The notes under the pieces were generated by a model. The model had not been told where the DNA came from. It made no database searches and saw only the letters and a program-made list of their open reading frames with translations. Shown here in pieces: positions 51,356 to 62,638 of a DNA stretch of 64,000 bases. Every line of letters starts with the position of its first letter. Position 1 is the stretch's first letter. Source of the stretch: Acidihalobacter aeolianus (GTDB lineage: Bacteria > Pseudomonadota > Gammaproteobacteria > DSM-5130 > Acidihalobacteraceae); contig NZ_CP017448.1 in assembly GCF_001753165.1 (NCBI RefSeq), positions 2,669,183-2,733,182 of the forward strand, read 5' to 3'. Made by a program: the position numbers and the translations under genes.

Positions 51356-53644
51356 TCAAGAATATTCGTAGCGACGCTGCCAATGCTCAAGCCATTCACC
51401 AGCGATATCGAGTACCGCATCGGCAGGAACCGCCGGAGAAATACGAAATCCCTGGGCAGCAAAACAACCGAGCTCCGACAGCACCAGCATTTGATCGTCG
51501 GTTTCAGCACCCTCGGCGATACAGGCAAGACCCAGCATGCGGCAGGTGCCGATAACCCCGCCCACAATAGCGCGATCGCGGTAATCTTCGGTAATACTCG
51601 ACACGAAACTACGGTCGATTTTCACATAATCGATGGGTAACCGTTGCAGATGGTGCAGCGATGCCTGCCCCGTGCCGAAATCGTCCAATGCAAGACGCAG
51701 CCCCTGGTTCCGCGTGAAATCGAAAGCCGCGTATGCGGTTTTTACGTCAAGCGGCGCTCGTTCGGTGATCTCAACGACCAGGCGGCTGCGGACCAGGGAA
51801 TCGTGACGACCCAAAATTTCGTTCAGATCAGCGGCCCAGGCAGGATGCATGATGTGCCGCGCGCCAATGTTGACGCTGATGTAAAAGTCGCCGCCAACCT
51901 CGCGCCAAGCCATGAGCTGTTCGCATGCCTTACCCAGGACAATGCGACCGACTTCGCGAATGAGCACGGCATCGTCCTCCACGATCTCGAGCAATGGACC
52001 GGCAGAAATCACGCCCTGGGTGGGATGCACGATGCGCAGCAATGCCTCCACACCCACCAGCCGCCCATTCTCCAGATCGACGATCGGTTGGTAATGCAAC
52101 ACCAACAGTTCGTCGCGCATGGCGATACGCAGCATGTTGATGCGATCGGCACGCTCGTCAATACCGCGTGCCAGTTCCGCCGAAAACAACGCGTAGCGCG
52201 AGCGCCCCGACTGCTTCGCGTGATACATCGCCAGATCGGCGTGGTGCAGCAGAGTATCGGAGTCCGAATAATCGTCCGGGTAGATGGAAAGCCCGATGCT
52301 CGCCGACAGATGTACCGTCATGCCGTCGACGTTGAAGGGCTCGCACAATGCCTGATTGATCCGCGTGGCGAGTTCGGCCGACTTGAGCGCGGCGTCGCCG
52401 CGAATGTCGCCGACCAGAATCGCGAACTCGTCGCCGCCCATGCGCGCAAGCGTATCGCCGGCGCGCAGACAAGACTTGATCCGCTTGGTGGTTTCGCAGA
52501 GCACGAGATCGCCGGCAGAATGGCCGAGGCCGTCATTGATCTCCTTGAACAGATCCAGGTCGATCATCCCCACGATGAGTTTCGTCTGCTCTCGGTCCAC
52601 GCGCGAACGCGCGACCGAAAGCCGATCCTTGTACAGCGTCCGGTTCGGCAATCCGGTCAGCGCATCGCGCAGGTTCTGCGCGCGCAGCGTCAGAACCAAC
52701 GCGCCAATCCGCGCCATCGAGTCAAAGAAACCCAGGGCGAAGCGACTCAGATAACCTGGTTGGTTCAGGGCCGCCATCCCCACGCCCCGATAGACTCGCC
52801 CCATGCCTTCGAACGGGAAAATACCGATTTCACGCACACCGGGAAGATCGATGCCCATTCGTCCCAGATCGAGATGAGAAAGCACCTTGCGCCGCCGATT
52901 CTGTAGCGCGTCGACACACTCCCCGATCAGCAGATTCCAGGTGCGATTGTCCACAGAAGGCTGCGCCATGCCGTCGGCGGGGATGAATTCGTAGGACATC
53001 CGGCGGTCGGTCAACCCATACCAGGCCCACACGACGTGTCCGGTCCTTTTCGGCAGGGATTGCGCCAGACGACGCAGCAGCGCATCCGGCTTTTCGCCCG
53101 ATTGGGCATGATTGAATGACTCGATCAGCAGGTCGAACAACACCCTGATTTCGTGGTCATCCTGGGCCCTTGCCTGGGCATAGCCCTCCAATTGAATCGC
53201 AAGATCGGCCAGCAGCAAGCTCACCACGGCACTGCGCAGTGCCGTACGCACCGAGCGGTTCTTGATCCGGAAAATCTGTTTCGACAGATGCCGATAGTAA
53301 AGCGAATACGCACCGGCAGCCCATGCAGGCTCGACGTTCCACAGATGATGCGCCCGCCCTATCCTGCGTGAGCTCTCCACATGTCCTTCGGAAAGACCGT
53401 CGGTAATCAGCGAAACCAAGTGTTTCATCTGATTTACGTGCAGACGCTCCAAGCTGGCGGGATTCATGTTTGCGAACACCGCCTGCATCTCGGAGAAATT
53501 CATCAAATAATCGTAAAACTCATCGGAAAACTTATCCGCCTCACGAGTCAACACGGCGGCATATTTCAACACGAGATTTTTGGCAGTTTCATCCAGGCCG
53601 ATGAAATCCACCAGTCCAGCCGGGCCTCTGACGTTTACGGCCAT
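51356..53644 (-). CDS. Globin-coupled GGDEF-EAL c-di-GMP enzyme
   Basis: A 762-aa bifunctional signalling protein. Residues about 15-165 form a protoglobin sensor (FSDEFYDYLMNFSEMQAVF, RLHVNQMKHLVSLITDGLSE, RIGRAHHLWNVEPAWAAGAY with a likely haem-ligand His). A middle region (about 170-320) is unassigned. GGDEF (about 330-490) has an intact RMGGDEFAILVG site, and EAL (about 500-750) is intact (GVEALLRI, VNIGARHIM, LDDFGTGQASLHHL). It should adjust c-di-GMP to oxygen. The ATG has AGGA six bases upstream. Confidence 0.9.
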   Translation of the reverse strand: MAVNVRGPAGLVDFIGLDETAKNLVLKYAAVLTREADKFSDEFYDYLMNFSEMQAVFANMNPASLERLHVNQMKHLVSLITDGLSEGHVESSRRIGRAHHLWNVEPAWAAGAYSLYYRHLSKQIFRIKNRSVRTALRSAVVSLLLADLAIQLEGYAQARAQDDHEIRVLFDLLIESFNHAQSGEKPDALLRRLAQSLPKRTGHVVWAWYGLTDRRMSYEFIPADGMAQPSVDNRTWNLLIGECVDALQNRRRKVLSHLDLGRMGIDLPGVREIGIFPFEGMGRVYRGVGMAALNQPGYLSRFALGFFDSMARIGALVLTLRAQNLRDALTGLPNRTLYKDRLSVARSRVDREQTKLIVGMIDLDLFKEINDGLGHSAGDLVLCETTKRIKSCLRAGDTLARMGGDEFAILVGDIRGDAALKSAELATRINQALCEPFNVDGMTVHLSASIGLSIYPDDYSDSDTLLHHADLAMYHAKQSGRSRYALFSAELARGIDERADRINMLRIAMRDELLVLHYQPIVDLENGRLVGVEALLRIVHPTQGVISAGPLLEIVEDDAVLIREVGRIVLGKACEQLMAWREVGGDFYISVNIGARHIMHPAWAADLNEILGRHDSLVRSRLVVEITERAPLDVKTAYAAFDFTRNQGLRLALDDFGTGQASLHHLQRLPIDYVKIDRSFVSSITEDYRDRAIVGGVIGTCRMLGLACIAEGAETDDQMLVLSELGCFAAQGFRISPAVPADAVLDIAGEWLEHWQRRYEYS

Positions 53645-54038: not shown

Positions 54039-54053
54039 TGGCTCAATTCCTGC
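54039..54053 (+). promoter_or_regulatory. Candidate sigma-54 promoter for the SIR2-like gene
   Basis: TGGCTCAATTCCTGC has GG (54040-54041) and GC (54052-54053) separated by exactly 10 bases, the diagnostic -24/-12 spacing, and a T follows as in TTGCT. It would start transcription near 54065, ahead of the ATG at 54094. No exact TGT-N10-ACA NifA site is found in the 230 bases upstream, so activation by NifA is unproven. Confidence 0.5.
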
Positions 54054-54093
54054 TTTGTACATACGGGCAAATCCACGATACGGAAGCACACCG

Positions 54094-54939
54094 ATGTTCG
54101 AATCGATACTCAACGAGCTCGCAGAAGGCATCCGCAAGGGCGAGGTCGTCCCCTACCTCGGTCCTGGCGCCTTGCGTGGCATCACCGACAAGGTCAGTGG
54201 CGAGCAGATACCGGCGACCAGTGACGAACTGATCCTGGCGCTCAACCAGGGCCAGCCCATGGCGCCGCGTCTGATGTACGAATTCCCGCGTGCCGCCATG
54301 CACGTGGAACTCAAGCGCGGGCGCAGCGCGGTCAACCGTTTCCTTACCGAGACCTACGGCGAGCGACAGTGGACGCGCTCACCGGTACATCAGGCGCTGG
54401 CGGAGATGCAGGCGCCCTATGTCATCGATATCAACCGCGACACCCAGCTGCAGGAACTCTATGCCGACCGCGCACACCTGCTGATCCTCGGCATGGCCCG
54501 CATCGGCGGCACGGACTACCGCTACAAGCTGTATCAGTACGACGGCAGCAGCTACAGCGAAATTGCGGCCGAAGACGCGGACACCAGCCTGCCCGTACTG
54601 TTCAAGCCGATGGGCTCGCCGGTGCCGGAACCGAGCTACATCGCCTCCGACGCGGACTATGTCGACTACATCACCGAGCTCATGGGTGGCTTCGCAGTAC
54701 CCGCCTTCGTCAAGCGCCGGCGTGAGGGCGTGCGTTACCTGTTCATCGGCCTGCGCCTGCAGCGCGACACCGAACGCATGGTGATGAGCGACCTGATCTA
54801 CGCCAATGCAGGTAGCCCGGCCGGATGGGCACTGATCCCGGATGCCACACCCAAGGAACGCCGCTTCTGCGCCCGTCAGGGCATCGAGGTGGTCGAGGCG
54901 GACATCTCGGATCTGATGTCCGGTTTGCAAGCTGCGTAA
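54094..54939 (+). CDS. SIR2-like domain protein in the nif region
   Basis: A 281-aa soluble protein with a SIR2_2-type NAD-binding fold: an altered glycine loop VVPYLGPGALRG near residue 20, an INRDTQLQEL segment near 112, the K-x-x-G-S block LFKPMGSPVPEPSYIASDAD with the typical following acidic Tyr, and the late RYLFIGLRLQRDTERMV strand. Catalytic deacylase residues are not clearly identifiable, so the activity (NAD hydrolysis, ADP-ribose chemistry, or binding only) is open. GGAAG precedes ATG 54094. It converges on draG with a 21-base gap and has a sigma-54-like promoter. Confidence 0.75.
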   Translation: MFESILNELAEGIRKGEVVPYLGPGALRGITDKVSGEQIPATSDELILALNQGQPMAPRLMYEFPRAAMHVELKRGRSAVNRFLTETYGERQWTRSPVHQALAEMQAPYVIDINRDTQLQELYADRAHLLILGMARIGGTDYRYKLYQYDGSSYSEIAAEDADTSLPVLFKPMGSPVPEPSYIASDADYVDYITELMGGFAVPAFVKRRREGVRYLFIGLRLQRDTERMVMSDLIYANAGSPAGWALIPDATPKERRFCARQGIEVVEADISDLMSGLQAA

Positions 54940-54960
54940 ACCGACTGGCGGACACGCTGC

Positions 54961-55884
54961 TTAACAGCGCGCGTCCGCCAGTCCGATCAGTGCCTCCGCC
55001 TGCTGCTCGCAGGCACGCTTCACTTCGCGATCGAGCACGGCCAGCCAGCGCCGTGGAATTGCCTCCACGCCATACCAGGCCCCGGCCAGCATGCCGGTGA
55101 TCGCGCCCGTGGTGTCGGCATCTCCACCACGGTTGACCACATCGACCACGCTTGCCTCGAATCCGCCGGCCTCGAACAGGGCCTGAAAAACCGCCTGCAG
55201 GGTCTCGACCACATAGGCACTTGGATTTTCCCGGCGCGTCCGCCTGAACTCAAATGCAGCGTGCCTTTCTACCAGAGCTCTCGCACGCGTGTGCAACACG
55301 GCAAGCGTCGCCGTGCCCGGCAGCGCCAGCTGCAACATCTCCACGAGACATACGCAGGCTACATCCGACAGCTCGTTGCGATGCGTCACCCAAGCCTGCG
55401 CCAGGGTAGCACTACGCACCGCTTCCGTCGGCCGCCCCAGCGTCGCCAGGGCCACGGGCAGACAGCGCATCGCAGCGCCGTTGCCGGCGGCATATTCGTC
55501 CGGAGCAACCGTGGGATTACCGCTACTGCGATAGTGCAACAAACCGCGGCGTACGGTGTTGCCGATATCGACCGGTTTGCCGCGCATCCAGGTATCGAAG
55601 GCACGCGCGGCACCCTCCGCATCGACCGTGTCGCCCTGCGCGGGCATCGCCTCACCGAGGGCGAGACTCATGGTGGTATCGTCGGTGACCTGACCGCGGG
55701 GTAGATGCAGCCAGCCCCCGCCGCGGATGCGGTCATGCACCCCATAGGTGGCACGGATCTCGCGCGGCGTCATGAACTCGAGCGTTGCGCCCAGCGCGTC
55801 GCCTACCGCAAGCCCTAGATAGGCGCCGCGTGCGCGAGAAAGCAGTGCCGAGCGGTCAGTCCTCGGGCCCGAAGCAGCGAGCAT
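54961..55884 (-). CDS. draG: ADP-ribosyl-[dinitrogen reductase] hydrolase
   Basis: Removes ADP-ribose from the arginine of nitrogenase iron protein, restoring activity. The 307-aa protein has the ADP-ribosylglycohydrolase metal motifs GQVTDDTTMSLALGEAM near residue 65 and NRGGDADTTGAITGMLAGAW near 250, and the family start GAYLGLAVGDALGATLEFMT. ATG 55884 lies inside nifQ (29-base overlap), so the two are likely co-translated. The matching transferase draT is not in the window. Confidence 0.9.
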   Translation of the reverse strand: MLAASGPRTDRSALLSRARGAYLGLAVGDALGATLEFMTPREIRATYGVHDRIRGGGWLHLPRGQVTDDTTMSLALGEAMPAQGDTVDAEGAARAFDTWMRGKPVDIGNTVRRGLLHYRSSGNPTVAPDEYAAGNGAAMRCLPVALATLGRPTEAVRSATLAQAWVTHRNELSDVACVCLVEMLQLALPGTATLAVLHTRARALVERHAAFEFRRTRRENPSAYVVETLQAVFQALFEAGGFEASVVDVVNRGGDADTTGAITGMLAGAWYGVEAIPRRWLAVLDREVKRACEQQAEALIGLADARC

Positions 55885-56455
55885 AATCGACGCAGACCTC
55901 GCACGAGGGCGCGCGACACACGTAGATCCCCTCGGCCTGACAGAGTTGCTTGTACAAAAAACGCTTCCACTTCATATCGCGATCGTTGCGTTCCGCCAGT
56001 GCCGGAAAATTCTCCGTCATCAATCTGCCAAGGTCCGTGCGCGACCAGAGACCCAGGTCCTGCCACAGGTGATCGCCACCCATGCAGGCAGCGGCGACGA
56101 TGCCCGCCAGCCAGACCTCGCTCCCCGCACGGCCACTGCGGTGCGCCAGTAGCAGCACCTCGATGTCTTCCCGCTCGTTGCCGCGTTCGTGCCAGTCGTC
56201 GTCGCCGATGCCGGCATCGGGCAGCAGGGCGGCCGCCCGCGGGAAATGCGCCTGCAGCAACGCCGCGAAAGCCTCCGGATCCAGCCCCAGCCGCGCGGGA
56301 AGCGCGCCGATGCCGGCCTCGCGCGAGGCCAGGATTTTCGCCAGCAGACTGTCGTTGGGCTGGCCTGCGGCGTGCGCCATCCAGTAGCCGTAGCGTGCCT
56401 CGCGCGAGCGGAACGATGCCGGCGACAATGCCTCTGCGCTGGTGAGCCAGGTCAT
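55856..56455 (-). CDS. nifQ: Nitrogen fixation protein NifQ
   Basis: Molybdenum-handling protein that donates Mo for FeMo-cofactor synthesis. The 199-aa protein has the family segment WLAGIVAAACMGGDHLWQDL and the C-terminal cluster motif CRAPSCEVCVDYARC (C-x4-C-x2-C-x5-C). ATG 56455 shares ATGA with the stop of the NifX-like gene, which sets the start. It precedes draG in the operon. Confidence 0.92.
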   Translation of the reverse strand: MTWLTSAEALSPASFRSREARYGYWMAHAAGQPNDSLLAKILASREAGIGALPARLGLDPEAFAALLQAHFPRAAALLPDAGIGDDDWHERGNEREDIEVLLLAHRSGRAGSEVWLAGIVAAACMGGDHLWQDLGLWSRTDLGRLMTENFPALAERNDRDMKWKRFLYKQLCQAEGIYVCRAPSCEVCVDYARCFGPED

Positions 56456-56826
56456 GCCGACCGAACGGCCGCAAGCGGCCGCCTCGCCTCGCCGCACCAG
56501 CGGCGCCATCCCGCCAGAACCGCAGCGCCGCGCTCGCCCCTGCCCAGGCGGCGCATCGGGACGCCGCGCGCGACCAGGTGTGCATGCAGATCGGGACGTC
56601 GCGCGTCCACCAGCACCAGATCACAATCCGACAGGCGCCGGGCGAGCACATCGGCCTCGCCGGTCGGGACGCCAACACGCCCGATCAATGAAAGTCCGCG
56701 CTGAGAGCAGTCGTACAACGCGAACGCCTCGCCGTCATCGACGGCGACCACTGCCCGATCACTCTCTCCGGGCAACGACCCGGACTCGCACAGAGTCCAG
56801 GCCGGTTCTCCGTAATGCGCATGCAT
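56452..56826 (-). CDS. NifX/NifB-C-type cofactor-binding-like protein
   Basis: A 124-aa protein resembling the dinitrogenase iron-molybdenum cofactor domain: N-terminal strand WTLCESGSLPGESDRAVVAV, then the typical SDCDLVLVDARRPDLHAHLV and RGVPMRRLG. The middle region is shorter than in NifX, so the assignment is a family-level one. GGAGG lies seven bases ahead of ATG 56826. It is translationally coupled to nifQ and probably handles a cofactor precursor. Confidence 0.65.
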   Translation of the reverse strand: MHAHYGEPAWTLCESGSLPGESDRAVVAVDDGEAFALYDCSQRGLSLIGRVGVPTGEADVLARRLSDCDLVLVDARRPDLHAHLVARGVPMRRLGRGERGAAVLAGWRRWCGEARRPLAAVRSA

Positions 56827-57384: not shown

Positions 57385-58860
57385 TTAGGCAACGACCAGC
57401 TGTTCATCGACAGCCGACAGCGCACCGGCCTCCCACATCTCGCGGTAAACCGCGGCGACGGCGTCCTCGATCCGCTCCATCGCATGCTCGCCGTTGGGCT
57501 TGATCCCGGCTGCTTCGAGCATGTCCCAGGGCTCGTAACCGATCTTCGAGCAGAGCACGGCCTCGCAGCCCGACAGCGTGCCGATGGTCCGCGACAGCAC
57601 ACTCTCGCCGTCGCCGCAGGTGTCGCCACCCTCGCAGTAGTTGTCGGTCTTGCGATGGCTGATGAAGCGCACACCGGCCGGCGAGGCCTCGTAGATCAGG
57701 AACTCGTGCGCGTGGCCGAAGTGCTGGTTGATCACGCCGCCGCCCTGGCTGGCGATCGCCATCAGCACCGGACGCGCATCGGGGTCGATGTCCGTCGGCG
57801 CCGCCGGCTTGGCCTGGGCATGCTGGTTGAGCTCGGCCTCGATCGAACGATGCACCTCGGCCCGTCGAACCATAGCGGCTTCGTAGTCGATCTCCATGGC
57901 TTCGATCTTGTCCAGGGTGAACTCCTCGCCGCGATCCTCGCCGAGCAGGCCGACCGCATCGGCGCGGCACTGACGGCAGTGGCGCATCATGTTCATGTCG
58001 CCGGCACAGGCGTCCTGCAGGTTCTGCAGTTCCTCGGGCTCCGGACCGCGCTGCCCCATCAGACCGAAGAAGGTGCCGTGCTCGGCCTCGCTGATCAGCG
58101 GCATGACGTTGTGCAGGAAGGCGCCCTTGGACTTGACGATGCGGCTGACCTCCTTGAGGTGCTCGTCGTTCACGCCCGGGATCATCACCGAGTTGACCTT
58201 CACCAGGATGCCGCGCTCGGTGAGCATCTGCAGACCCTTCTGCTGCTGCTCGATCAGGATCGCCGCTGCCTCGCGGCCCTTGATGCGCTTGTTTTCCCAG
58301 AAGATCCAGGGATAGATCTTGGCGCCCACGTCGGGGTCCACGGCATTGATCGTGATGGTCACGTGGTCGATGTTGTGCTTGGCCAGTTCATCCACGCTCT
58401 CGGGCAGCGCCAGACCGTTGGTGGAAACGCACAGCTTGATGTCCGGGGCCTGCTCGCTGAGCATGCGGAAGGTCGCGAAGGTACGCTCCGGATTGGCCAG
58501 CGGATCGCCGGGGCCGGCGATGCCGAGCACCGTCATCTGCGGAATGTTGGCGGCCACCGCCAGGGTCTTCTTGACCGCCTGGTCCGGGGTCAGCAGCTCG
58601 GACACCACGCCCGGGCGCGACTCGTTGCTGCAGTCGTACTTGCGGTTGCAGTAGTGACACTGAATGTTGCACGCCGGCGCCACGGCCACATGCATGCGCG
58701 CGAAGTAATGGTGCGCCTGCTCGGAATAACACGGGTGGTTGTAGACCTTGTCGCGGATTTCGTCGGGCAGGTGAGCGAGTTGGTCGTCTGTGCTGCCGCA
58801 TCCACTGGAAGAGCATCCCGACGCCTGCGTGTCGGTCGAATCAAGCACTGTCAGTTCCAT
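57385..58860 (-). CDS. nifB: FeMo-cofactor biosynthesis radical SAM protein NifB
   Basis: Builds the 8Fe core (NifB-co) of the nitrogenase cofactor. The 491-aa protein has the radical SAM motif CNIQCHYC within VAPACNIQCHYCNRKYDC, the SAM-binding GIAGPGDPLANPE, auxiliary Cys at CRQCRADAVGLLG, and a C-terminal NifX-like domain (residues about 365-460, HFGHAHEFLIYEASPAGVRF). It heads the operon nifB-fdxN-unknown-NifX-like-nifQ-draG and has a sigma-54 promoter with a NifA site. Confidence 0.97.
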   Translation of the reverse strand: MELTVLDSTDTQASGCSSSGCGSTDDQLAHLPDEIRDKVYNHPCYSEQAHHYFARMHVAVAPACNIQCHYCNRKYDCSNESRPGVVSELLTPDQAVKKTLAVAANIPQMTVLGIAGPGDPLANPERTFATFRMLSEQAPDIKLCVSTNGLALPESVDELAKHNIDHVTITINAVDPDVGAKIYPWIFWENKRIKGREAAAILIEQQQKGLQMLTERGILVKVNSVMIPGVNDEHLKEVSRIVKSKGAFLHNVMPLISEAEHGTFFGLMGQRGPEPEELQNLQDACAGDMNMMRHCRQCRADAVGLLGEDRGEEFTLDKIEAMEIDYEAAMVRRAEVHRSIEAELNQHAQAKPAAPTDIDPDARPVLMAIASQGGGVINQHFGHAHEFLIYEASPAGVRFISHRKTDNYCEGGDTCGDGESVLSRTIGTLSGCEAVLCSKIGYEPWDMLEAAGIKPNGEHAMERIEDAVAAVYREMWEAGALSAVDEQLVVA

Positions 58861-58996: not shown

Positions 58997-59012
58997 TGTA
59001 GACAAACGAACA
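58997..59012. promoter_or_regulatory. NifA upstream activator sequence for nifB
   Basis: TGT-N10-ACA (TGT 58997-58999, ACA 59010-59012) is the exact NifA-binding consensus. It is centred about 90 bases upstream of the -24 element, a normal distance for DNA looping to sigma-54 polymerase. Confidence 0.75.
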
Positions 59013-59131: not shown

Positions 59132-60676
59132 TCAGATCTGACGAACGCGGATCTTGAGGGTCTGGATACGATAGGCGATCTGCCGTGGCGTCATGCCCAG
59201 CAGACGCGCTGCCTTGGCCTGCACCCAACCGGCCTGCTCCAGGGCAGCGACCACGCGTTCGCGTTCGCTGAGTTCGGGATCGTTGAGATTGGAGGGCACT
59301 GCCGCGGCGGATTCCTCCACCTGCGGCCGCGCACCCAGGCCGGAAGGCATGACCAGATCGCTGTCGATGCTGCCGTCTTCGCTCATTACCGCAGCACGTT
59401 CGAGACAGTTTTCCAGTTCGCGTACGTTGCCCGGCCAGTCGTGGTTGGCCAGCGCACGCAGCGCACCGCCAGTCAGCGCCAGCTGACGACCCTGGCGTTC
59501 GGCGATCTTGTCGAGCAGGAACTGGGCCAGTTCCGGCAGGTCGCCGACGCGATCGCGCAGCGGCGGCAGATAGATCGGCATGACGTTGAGCCGATAGTAG
59601 AGATCCTCGCGGAACTCGCCCTTGACCACGGCGTCCTCGAGGTTGCGATTGGTCGCCGCGATCACGCGCACGTCGACACGCAACGTCCGCGTACCGCCCA
59701 GGCGCTCGAATTCACCCTCCTGCAGCACGCGCAGCAGCTTGGCCTGGAAGGCCGGGGTGATTTCGCCGATCTCGTCCAGGAAGATGGTGCCGCCTGCGGC
59801 CTGCTCGAAGCGCCCGCGGCGGCTGGCCACCGCGCCCGTGAAGGCACCCTTCTCGTGACCGAACAGCTCGGACTCGAGCAGGTTGTCCGGCAGGGCCGCG
59901 CAGTTGAGCTTGATGAACGGCGCGTTGGCGCGCGGCGAGTTGTAGTGCACGGCATTGGCCACGAGTTCCTTGCCGGTACCGGACTCGCCGCGCACCAGCA
60001 CGGTGGTATTCCACTTGGAAACCTGACGCACCTGCTCGAACACCTGACGCATCGCCGGGGCGTGGCCGACCAGGGTGTCGAAACCGTATTCGCCGCGCAG
60101 TTGCCGACGCAGCGAATCGCGTTCCTCCTGCAGGGCACGCTGGCCGTGCTCGACTTCCCAGGCGCGCCCCACGCTGCTGCCGACAAGATCCGCGATCATG
60201 CCGAGAAAACGCTCCTGAACGTGCAGGGCGGCGGCATTCGAGGGCTGCGCGGCAAGCACGCCTGAGACGTTCCCGGCAATCACGATCGGCACCGCCAGGA
60301 ACGGCAGGTCACGGTCGTACACCCCCATGCGGTCAAGAAAGCGCGGTTCGTCGCCCAGGCGCTCCGCCACCACCGGCTGCCGATGGGCCAGCACCCAGCC
60401 GATCACACCCTCGCCGCTGCGGTAGCGCACCGCCTCGCGATCGGCACATTCGGCGTGCAGGGCGTGGACCGACAGGGCCGCGCCCTCGGGCTCGCGCAGG
60501 GCGACCATGCCGTGATGCAGGTCCGCCTGTTCGTGCAGGATGCCCAGCATCGACTCCAGCGTCGCATGCAGGGCCTCTGCGCGGCTGAGCACCAGACCGA
60601 CGCGATAGAGCGTCCGCAGCTGGTTCTGCAGCATCGCCTGGCTGGCGGACTCCATGATCGCGTTGGCTGCGCTCAT
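59132..60676 (-). CDS. nifA: Nitrogen fixation transcriptional activator NifA
   Basis: Enhancer-binding protein that activates sigma-54 nif promoters. The 514-aa protein has an N-terminal GAF domain (residues about 20-180), the AAA+ domain with Walker A GESGTGKE and the sigma-54 contact loop GAFTGA, and a C-terminal helix-turn-helix ([20 protein letters not shown]). The inter-domain linker lacks the Cys-x4-Cys of oxygen-sensing NifA proteins, which fits control by the NifL encoded upstream. It overlaps nifL by four bases (ATGA). Confidence 0.95.
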
Positions 60677-62289
60677 AGCTCTCCGGCCCGCCGCTGGGCA
60701 CGCGACGACAAGGGGAAGGAGACGTGCACACTGGCGCCCGGCGTATGCTCGGAATCGATCCAGATCAAGGCGTCATGTGCATTGATCACGTTCTGCACGA
60801 TGGCAAGGCCCATACCTGCCCGGCCGTTTGAGGTGCGTGTGGTGTAGAACGGCTCGAAGATCTTGAGCTGATGCTTCGGGTCGATGCCGGGGCCACTATC
60901 CTCGATCGCGATCTCGATCTCGCCGTTGTTGAGCTGGCTACGAATCGACAGTACCCGCGCGCTTGAAGACACTTCATCAAGCGCATCCAGGGCATTCTCG
61001 ATCAGCTGCCGGAACATGTCCTGCAGCGCCACGGGATCGCCCAGATAAGTCGGCAGGGCGCGCGCTGGCTGCCAATCCACCACCACGCCGGCGGCGAGCA
61101 TGCGCGGCGTGGCGAGGGCCAGCACGTCACGCAGCACCTCGTTCAAATTGACATTGGAGCGCCGTATGCGACGTTCCTGTGGTAACGCTCCGGAAAGCCG
61201 CTGCTTGGCCGCCTCGCCGGCCTCGCGCGCCAGCAACAGGCCTTCGAGCAGGCCGCTGTCTCCGGGGTGTTCGCGACATTCGATCAGCGAATGCAGGGCG
61301 CCGATCCTGCCGACCAGGCTGTCGAGCTGGAACACCGCGCCATTGACCGTCTCGCGCACGCCCTCGGTCAGCTCATGCTCGGTGAGCACCGCACGCAGGG
61401 CGCTGATGCGCAGTTCCTCGCGGCGTCGGCGCTGTGCGGTGACGTCGCTCACGGCAAGCAGCAGATAACCCTTGGCCTCGGGCTCGAAAAAGGCATCGGG
61501 GCGTGTCTCGACGCCGTCGACGCGTGTGGTCGAGCAGCTCAACCAGCGCGCGGGCCGCTCATCCTCGCCGCCGATGCCGACCTCGCGGTCCTTGAACTGC
61601 ACCAGGGCACCGGCATCCTCCCAGGCGGCCAGCTTGAGGCCGAGCGAACCGAACACGAGACTGGCCGGATCGCCGCCCAGTTCGGTGCGCAGGCGCAGGT
61701 AGGCTGCATTCTCGCGGATACGCTCGCCGCCAGGACCGATCAGTACGATGGCCACGGGTGCGAGAGTGAACACCGACTCGACCAACGCCATGTGGTCGCG
61801 CAGTTCGCGTTCCAGGCGGTGCATCTCGGTGATGTCGCGATGCATGCCGATGTAGTGGGTGGCGCGATCTTCCGCATCCACCACCGGTGCGATGGTGACC
61901 TCGGCGAGATAGGGTTCGCCGTCGCGACTGCGATTGAGCAGCGTTCCGGTCCACGGCCGCCGCTCCGAAAGATGTCGCCAGAGGTCCTCGTACAGGGCCC
62001 GCGGCGTGACCTTGTGCGACAACACCGATTCGTTGCGGCCGATGATCTCGGCACGCGGATAACCGGTGACGCGGGTGAACGCCGCATTGGTGTAAAGGAT
62101 GTTCGCGCGGCTGTCCGTGATCGAGATGGCGACGGGCGCCTGCTCGACCGCAGCCATGAACAGGCTGGGCAGCAGCGAAGTCACGGGTTTGGCGTCGACG
62201 TCGGCGGGTCCCTCCGCCGCGAGCACGCCATCATCCGGCGGGGCTTCGTCGATCTGTGGTGCGCGGTGCCCTCCGCTGTCTTTGATCAT
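60673..62289 (-). CDS. nifL: Nitrogen fixation negative regulator NifL
   Basis: Redox and nitrogen sensor that inhibits NifA by binding. From ATG 62289 (GGAGGT four bases upstream) it is 538 aa. A PAS domain of the FAD-binding NifL type (ITDSRANILYTNAAFTRVTG; RPWTGTLLNRSRDGEPYLAE) is followed by a second PAS-like region (about 160-280), a helical linker, and a GHKL ATPase-like domain with ENALDALDE, IEDSGPGIDP and AGMGLAIVQNVI. No phosphoacceptor His is evident in the linker, as expected for NifL, which does not signal by phosphotransfer. Confidence 0.9.
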   Translation of the reverse strand: MIKDSGGHRAPQIDEAPPDDGVLAAEGPADVDAKPVTSLLPSLFMAAVEQAPVAISITDSRANILYTNAAFTRVTGYPRAEIIGRNESVLSHKVTPRALYEDLWRHLSERRPWTGTLLNRSRDGEPYLAEVTIAPVVDAEDRATHYIGMHRDITEMHRLERELRDHMALVESVFTLAPVAIVLIGPGGERIRENAAYLRLRTELGGDPASLVFGSLGLKLAAWEDAGALVQFKDREVGIGGEDERPARWLSCSTTRVDGVETRPDAFFEPEAKGYLLLAVSDVTAQRRRREELRISALRAVLTEHELTEGVRETVNGAVFQLDSLVGRIGALHSLIECREHPGDSGLLEGLLLAREAGEAAKQRLSGALPQERRIRRSNVNLNEVLRDVLALATPRMLAAGVVVDWQPARALPTYLGDPVALQDMFRQLIENALDALDEVSSSARVLSIRSQLNNGEIEIAIEDSGPGIDPKHQLKIFEPFYTTRTSNGRAGMGLAIVQNVINAHDALIWIDSEHTPGASVHVSFPLSSRAQRRAGEL

Positions 62290-62329
62290 AGCCACCTCCG
62301 ACATGGGTTCTGCAGCGCCGGGCGGCGCA

Positions 62330-62638
62330 TCAGCCGAACTTGAACAAAATCCCATACCCTCCGCGCGGGTACCACCATTCCACGTTTTGGTGTTCCGCGC
62401 AAATGATCCGGCAGGTGCCGCATTCCAGGCAGCCGTCCACGCTCAGGGTGACCCCGCCGCTGGCGTCCGGGGCGTAGCAGCCGGCCGGACAACAGAAGGT
62501 GCAGGCCTTGTCCTGACAGGCGTCGCGGCACACGCTGGAGTCGCGCACGGAAATGTGCGGGTGTCCCTCGTCGACGCGATAGCGGTTCTGGAACAGTTTT
62601 TCCTCGATCTTGACCGGGGTTGCGGTATTCGTGCTCAT
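62330..62638 (-). CDS. fixX: Ferredoxin-like protein FixX
   Basis: A 102-aa iron-sulfur partner of the FixABCX bifurcating complex, which makes low-potential electrons for nitrogenase. Cluster cysteines are in CRDACQDKACTFCCPAGCY and CLECGTCRIIC. ATG 62638 shares ATGA with the fixC stop. nifL starts 40 bases downstream, so fix and nifLA are probably one transcript. Confidence 0.93.
   Translation of the reverse strand: MSTNTATPVKIEEKLFQNRYRVDEGHPHISVRDSSVCRDACQDKACTFCCPAGCYAPDASGGVTLSVDGCLECGTCRIICAEHQNVEWWYPRGGYGILFKFG

Follow-up and report, generated by a model that had tools for sequence, protein, structure and literature searches.

A gene for a SIR2-like protein that lies tail-to-tail with draG, among nitrogen fixation genes of the gammaproteobacterium Acidihalobacter aeolianus, raises the question of what such a protein does for nitrogenase and whether its partner is the DraT/DraG system. 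The gene, here termed pnfA (54094..54939, plus strand, with the ATG at 54094 and the stop codon ending at 54939), is located in a window of 64,000 nucleotides, meaning the whole stretch of DNA that was analyzed, and encodes a protein of 281 residues whose sole Pfam match is SIR2_2 (PF13289, 27.9 bits against a cut-off of 24.5). It is preceded by a probable ribosome-binding site, GGAAG (54082..54086, plus strand), and its convergent neighbor at a distance of 21 nt is draG, the gene of ADP-ribosyl-dinitrogen-reductase hydrolase (54961..55884, minus strand; TIGR02662, 382.5 bits against a cut-off of 337.05). A first-pass annotation had described a SIR2_2-type protein encoded tail-to-tail with draG, and both points hold, the former also through the SIR2-fold model described below. 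Beyond draG, the minus strand carries nifQ (55856..56509; PF04891), nifB (57385..58860; TIGR01290), nifA (59132..60676; TIGR01817), the likely activator of the pnfA promoter, and nifL (60673..62355; TIGR02938). A fixX-like ferredoxin (PF05187) and a frame judged by eye to be fixC-like are also found in this nif neighborhood, and nifH and nifD are located elsewhere in the genome, where draT adjoins nifH. A strong hairpin lacking a T run lies between pnfA and draG and overlaps the 3′ end of draG (54943..54983, no strand assigned); the region 54930–54995 has a folding energy of −32.7 kcal/mol (z −4.0), and the hairpin is absent from the terminator predictions for the window. Divergent from pnfA is a gene for a Protoglobin-GGDEF-EAL protein, likely an oxygen-sensing cyclic-di-GMP enzyme (51356–53644, minus strand).

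An AlphaFold2 model of the window protein (pLDDT 91, pTM 0.91) has a SIR2 fold. It was built from a 73-row alignment (A1) that leaves out eight of 80 relatives, namely L045 (containing X), L046 (containing a stop) and six judged to be near-duplicates. The best structural matches of the model are BcThsA (Z 17.5, rmsd 3.4 over 237 residues), DSR2 (17.4) and KomC (17.4), all of them NADases, where the best chains give VIA Z values of 17.4 to 17.5 over 237 to 243 residues and other chains range down to ∼14, while true sirtuins reach 11.6–11.8. When solved structures were searched by sequence, the window protein gave nothing relevant, a 12-row profile gave weak matches to KomC and other SIR2 proteins only, and Pfam SIR2_2 recognizes 10 of 12 family members at E values up to 1.

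The relatives of the protein form two branches, designated G, the close relatives with ∼57–66% identity to the window protein over the full alignment, and A, with ∼29% identity. Canonical SIR2 proteins have GAGxS at the glycine loop. This loop reads GPGAL in the window protein, and among the 86 branch-G proteins (window included; L046, which has an internal stop, is left out of all residue counts) column 23 is Gly in all 86 and column 24 is Pro in 59 and Ala in 23. It was therefore fair to describe the loop as altered. Over both branches the glycine of column 23 is kept in 99 of 99 sequences and Asp116 in 98 of 99. The His of SIR2 NADases has a catalytic role, with which the PDB titles of the H171A mutant of DSR2 and the H146N mutant of KomC agree. 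When aligned with solved chains, His179 of the relative L087 falls on H152 of ThsA and H146 of KomC, and a Trp of L087 falls on N112 of ThsA (positions counted by hand). The N112 column is Asn in 86/86 branch-G proteins and Trp in 13/13 branch-A proteins. No branch-G protein has His in the His column (Met 78, Thr 3, Leu 3, Val 1, Cys 1), and in branch A this column is His in 7, Tyr in 3, Leu in 2 and Trp in 1 of the 13. The window protein itself retains Asn114 and has Met173 where the catalytic His would be.

The catalytic Asn and His thus occur together in none of the 99 sequences, and among 24 further loci both motifs could be read by pattern in 22, none having both residues, with L178 and L181 incompletely read. 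Since no sequence holds the pair, NAD hydrolysis by the window protein would not be expected, and a hydrolase action on NAD or on ADP-ribose, the latter a substrate considered in the first-pass annotation, is unlikely, as neither branch keeps both residues; the NAD sensing also raised there may still apply. The comparison of the NAD pocket with known SIR2 proteins that the annotation had proposed led to a ThsA/DSR2/KomC fold with a broken Asn/His pair. The branch-A pocket may not bind NAD, given the Trp in the Asn column and, in 4/13 proteins, an Asp where the loop has its second glycine.

The expression signals connect the gene to the nif regulon. The string TGGCTCAATTCCTGC (54039..54053, plus strand), which has the form TGGC-N8-TGC / GG-N10-GC, lies 41–55 bp upstream of the pnfA ATG and is assigned as a sigma-54 (−24/−12) promoter. 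The string alone is weak evidence because such strings are common in the window. Those of the GG-N10-GC type number 38 against 19.6 in shuffles, and a stricter pattern with one mismatch allowed gives 10 against 5.4, with at least 10 reached in 5 of 100 shuffles. A promoter call from string counts was therefore dropped as too weak, and what makes the promoter convincing is its fixed place across relatives. NGG-N8-YTGC is found at −45 to −70 from the start in 67/86 branch-G loci (66/85 without the window) and in at most 6/86 in any other 25-bp bin, and the looser GG-N10-GC in 69/86 at that place against 6 to 19 in other 25-bp bins, so that the sigma-54-like promoter of the first-pass annotation is borne out. 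A NifA site, TGT-N10-ACA, is present within 400 bp upstream in 69/86 branch-G loci against 6.65 in mononucleotide shuffles (69/85 relatives when the window is not counted), although in loci with a divergent nifH the NifA site is common to both genes, and these counts are not independent. All of these counts refer to branch-G loci whose upstream DNA spans 250 bp or more, L015 being left out for having too little. When near-duplicates were thinned and the window removed, the promoter was present in 56/73 branch-G loci and the NifA site in 61/73. A weighted promoter score reached p ≤ 0.05 in 15/25 loci with draT just upstream and in 45/73 others, branch A included.

No exact TGT-N10-ACA site was found upstream of pnfA in the window, where three one-mismatch versions occur within 300 bp, a number that is uninformative. 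In the congeneric genome G001, pnfA has both promoter and NifA site. Over the whole window TGT-N10-ACA strings are not in excess (5 against 6.7 in shuffles); one of them, at 58997–59012 between nifA and nifB, is a NifA-site match where the nifB enhancer is expected. In branch A the promoter string falls at −45 to −70 in 1/13 loci and at −70 to −95 in 8/13. The latter are read as chance or coding matches because this place falls inside nifT in those loci in which nifT directly precedes the gene and because none of the 13 loci has an exact NifA site.

The distribution of the family follows nitrogen fixation. A search with a profile of 12 members (A2) found the gene in 17 of 398 genomes of a sample of the window's phylum. 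Of these carriers 15 have nifD above cut-off, and two (G072 and G257) have only a match of ∼306–310 bits whose assignment as nifE-type is our own. No carrier was found among the 354 genomes of the sample that do not count as nif genomes, 22 of which have weak matches, and co-occurrence with nif is strong (Fisher 2e-18; 1e-14 for nifD alone), while 27 of the 44 nif genomes are without the gene. In a sample of the class (n = 369, presumably Gammaproteobacteria plus betaproteobacterial orders) all 28 strong carriers have nif genes, 26 of them with nifD above cut-off. The nifD gene of G628 is split into two pieces, and the 81% complete assembly of G475 lacks a nifD match, although nifH is present in it 376 bp from the pnfA-family gene. 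Conversely, 27 of the 32 nifD genomes in this sample are carriers and 5 are not; G610 has a nifD fragment only and no family member. A possible 29th carrier, G434 (E 9e-4), was dropped when a tblastn search with three members of the family gave no relative in that genome. Of the five genomes sampled from the window's order, two have nifD, and the same two have pnfA. Matching plasmid records (n = 72) come from Rhizobium (55), Sinorhizobium (7), Mesorhizobium (7), Bradyrhizobium (1), Methylococcus (1), and Paraburkholderia (1), with ∼24–30% identity among the matches listed, and the two plasmid neighborhoods examined, those of R. etli p42d and Bradyrhizobium, are nif clusters.

Around the gene itself, nif or dra genes lie in the available flank of 66/80 close relatives, and nif genes are near it in 47 of the 52 whose flanks reach 8 kb or more on each side, the other five (L017, L023, L028, L041, L054) having no listed nif gene within these flanks. 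Locus counts are not independent, as some loci are near-identical (e.g., L017/L054, L030/L042, L038/L047/L050/L055, L086/L122/L123, and L125/L126) and six further loci of the set may duplicate contigs already counted. The family is tied to nitrogen fixation rather than to DraT/DraG; the first-pass expectations that a SIR2-fold protein goes with nitrogenase, and that its homologues would be found in diazotrophs and mostly near nif genes, were borne out in all 17 and all 28 carriers and in these neighborhoods.

The two branches differ in their surroundings. Frequent branch-G layouts are nifH< draT> pnfA> ... <draG <nifQ <nifB, or nifH< pnfA> without draT, and nifH is divergent upstream in 55 of the 80 close relatives, often with draT in between. 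In branch A, nifT is directly upstream in 10/13 loci, overlapping or within ∼50 bp (some of these loci are near-identical); the ten comprise two plasmids of rhizobia plus eight genomes that fall outside the class of the window. The remaining three, like further branch-A loci, have nifT ∼0.5 to 2 kb upstream of the gene. No genome of the phylum and class samples combined a full-length branch-G member with a full-length branch-A member, the extra matches in G047, G204, and G257 being fragments.

A gene of this description is known from Pseudomonas stutzeri A1501, in which PST1325, named pnfA, lies divergent to nifH, shows a 9.68-fold induction under nitrogen fixation, depends on NifA and RpoN, and is reported from diazotrophs only, with two subfamilies described (PMC2820453). 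As reported there, a non-polar mutant had 23% of nitrogenase activity at 0.5% oxygen with the nifH transcript unchanged, and lost nitrate-supported fixation (PMC2820453); complementation is stated by the authors as data not shown. Under anaerobiosis without electron acceptor the mutant resembled the wild type (PMC2820453), which is weak evidence because wild-type activity is itself low there. Since the mutant retained growth on nitrogen-free medium (PMC2820453), pnfA is not essential in P. stutzeri. PST1325 is also up ∼9-fold in engineered E. coli (PMC6053447), is labeled a SIR2 family protein elsewhere (PMC11332353), and its mutant result is repeated in a review (PMC5923616). Other SIR2-labeled proteins occur in nif clusters: Rcc03262 of Rhodobacter capsulatus is encoded by the last gene of the nifB1-rcc03265-nifZT-rcc03262 operon and was undetected in a nifA mutant (PMC6925177), ZMO1821 of Zymomonas mobilis is up under nitrogen fixation (PMC8600466), and Rhodovulum has a nifZ-nifT-SIR2 arrangement (PMC9412634). 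Rcc03262 and ZMO1821 are likened to the window protein by this description and would be expected in branch A, with PST1325 in branch G; with this proviso of likeness by label and not by sequence, the reported inductions and NifA dependence agree with the first-pass prediction of induction under nitrogen-fixing conditions. A SIR2 gene studied in rhizobia under mercury (PMC11227200) is unrelated, as is “PNFA” in PMC9144888, which is a different abbreviation.

The window gene is very probably the orthologue of P. stutzeri pnfA, as judged by SIR2 label, size, place, promoter and distribution rather than by sequence. The two share a size of ∼31 kDa, a sigma-54-type promoter, the nif link, the SIR2 label and a division of their relatives into two groups, and the occurrence in diazotrophs only, reported for PnfA, is also what was found within the window's phylum and the plasmid collection. 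They differ in that PST1325 is divergent from nifH and no DraT/DraG was found in its strain, whereas the window gene faces draG and is not divergent from nifH, beside which draT lies elsewhere in the genome. The window gene has the −24/−12 string without an exact NifA site, while most branch-G relatives have both. The 2010 study proposed a likeness of PnfA to UspA/ETF rather than a SIR2 fold (PMC2820453), and we found no paper in the open-licence literature that joins PnfA to SIR2 NADases. What appears to be new is the prediction of a ThsA/DSR2/KomC NADase fold lacking the catalytic pair, which is broken differently in the two branches.

With moderate confidence we favor an explanation in which the window gene, as a pnfA orthologue, would be transcribed by sigma-54 RNA polymerase under NifA as a proteobacterial nif accessory gene. 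Its product would consist of one SIR2 domain with the fold of ThsA, DSR2, and KomC, without an intact Asn/His pair of the kind that NAD hydrolysis requires. PnfA would act after transcription and independently of DraT/DraG, and would sustain nitrogenase activity in respiring cells, whether microaerobic or with nitrate. Its mechanism would most likely be that of a non-hydrolyzing protein that binds a nucleotide, NAD(H) or ADP-ribose, and contacts nitrogenase or its electron donors. The fold, the loss of the residue pair, the nif co-occurrence and the promoter come from the present analysis, and we infer the orthology to PST1325, the ligand and the target. Protection from oxygen alone is insufficient because nitrate acts without oxygen in the P. 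stutzeri phenotype, which would fit a link to the redox or energy state of respiration. A nucleotide-reading accessory protein is favored because the NADase fold lacks the hydrolytic pair; thus the pnfA protein is most likely hydrolysis-dead and possibly nucleotide-binding. An extension of this explanation, which we regard as tentative, is that PnfA is a domesticated anti-phage-type SIR2 NADase that lost hydrolysis twice, by loss of the His and by change of the Asn to Trp, and that reads NAD(H) or ADP-ribose to couple respiration to nitrogenase separately from NifL/NifA and DraT/DraG. The gene is widespread (27/32 nifD genomes in the class sample) and its likely orthologue has a reported phenotype, and in the records examined it is labeled “SIR2 family protein.” A NADase fold without its catalytic pair makes the mechanism directly testable by ligand binding, pocket mutants and partners, and pnfA may be relevant to the transfer of nif clusters into new hosts that respire.

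The alternative that survives best, although we think it unlikely, is that PnfA is a nitrogenase assembly or stability factor like NifT, NifZ, or NifW and that the SIR2 pocket is an unused relic. The position directly after nifT in ten branch-A loci and the degradation of the active site in two different ways agree with such a role, but a relic does not fit the conservation of the column-23 glycine and Asp116, and the resemblance of the P. stutzeri mutant to wild type without electron acceptor is unlike what an assembly factor predicts, with the caveat of the low wild-type activity in that condition.

That PnfA is an active NAD-consuming or deacylating enzyme is improbable. A deacetylase role has been guessed for ZMO1821, and the induction of that gene under nitrogen fixation would agree with it (PMC8600466), as would the SIR2 fold, the Asn retained in branch G and the His retained in part of branch A. 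The two residues never occur in one sequence, however, and the fold is closer to NADases than to sirtuin deacylases such as SIRT1, from which the window protein also differs in having no PF02146 (sirtuin) match in the Pfam scan, one Cys and no His base. Sirtuin deacetylases have a four-Cys zinc site, which the single Cys of the window protein therefore precludes. Judged by its residues, neither a deacetylase nor an active NADase is a plausible assignment, and both were rejected.

A role as partner or brake of the DraT/DraG switch, in line with the first-pass annotation, is very improbable. Among the 80 close relatives draT is upstream in the same direction in 41, draG faces the gene in 31, and both hold in 26. 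However, draT is present in only 5/17 phylum carriers and 13/28 class carriers (absent from 12/17 and 15/28), draG is above cut-off in 5/17 and 12/28 (below cut-off or absent in 12/17 and 16/28), and the congeneric G001, which has nif genes and pnfA, has no match for either. In the phylum sample draT is less frequent in carriers than in non-carrier nif genomes (5/17 against 22/27, p 0.001), a negative association that is probably phylogenetic because the non-carriers cluster in few families; in the class sample the difference (13/28 against 5/6) is not significant. The P. stutzeri mutant phenotype moreover comes from a strain in which the authors of that study did not find DraT/DraG (PMC2820453), and in Z. 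mobilis draT/draG are described as not annotated (PMC8594446). The partnership was rejected on the absence of dra genes from many carriers and from G001, and the special tie to DraT/DraG drawn by the first-pass annotation falls with it. Its further idea of a stand-in for a missing Dra partner is not supported because the window genome has both draT and draG.

Most improbable is that nif islands carry the gene as an anti-phage effector, for although the closest solved folds are defense NADases and 2/12 family members match the PADLOC ThsA model at E values up to 1 (best 1.5e-7), the window protein has no PADLOC match, it differs from ThsA, DSR2, and KomC in its single SIR2 domain, lost catalytic pair and nif regulation, close relatives were not found in viral contigs, and the nif tie, the NifA promoter and the nitrogenase phenotype all speak for another function, so that a defense role was rejected on distribution.

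Several minor features were seen among the relatives. Of the 86 branch-G proteins, 14 (e.g., L012, L015, L020, L120, and L121) have a C-terminal tail with Gly-Cys as its last residues, which the window protein lacks. In the congeneric G001 (L082, L133), pnfA faces nifQ directly at ∼109–163 bp with draG not in between. Downstream of pnfA on the same strand are genes for hemerythrin-like proteins in L006 (PF01814), L009, and L030 (the last two by eye) and for a short CxxCGR protein in L006, L009, L012, and L049, of which the L006 copy has no Pfam match. In branch A, a DegT-like aminotransferase (by eye) is encoded between nifT and the SIR2 gene in L131, L179, and L181, a 2Fe-2S ferredoxin (PF00111) is encoded there as well in L131, and a DUF6129 protein in L178.
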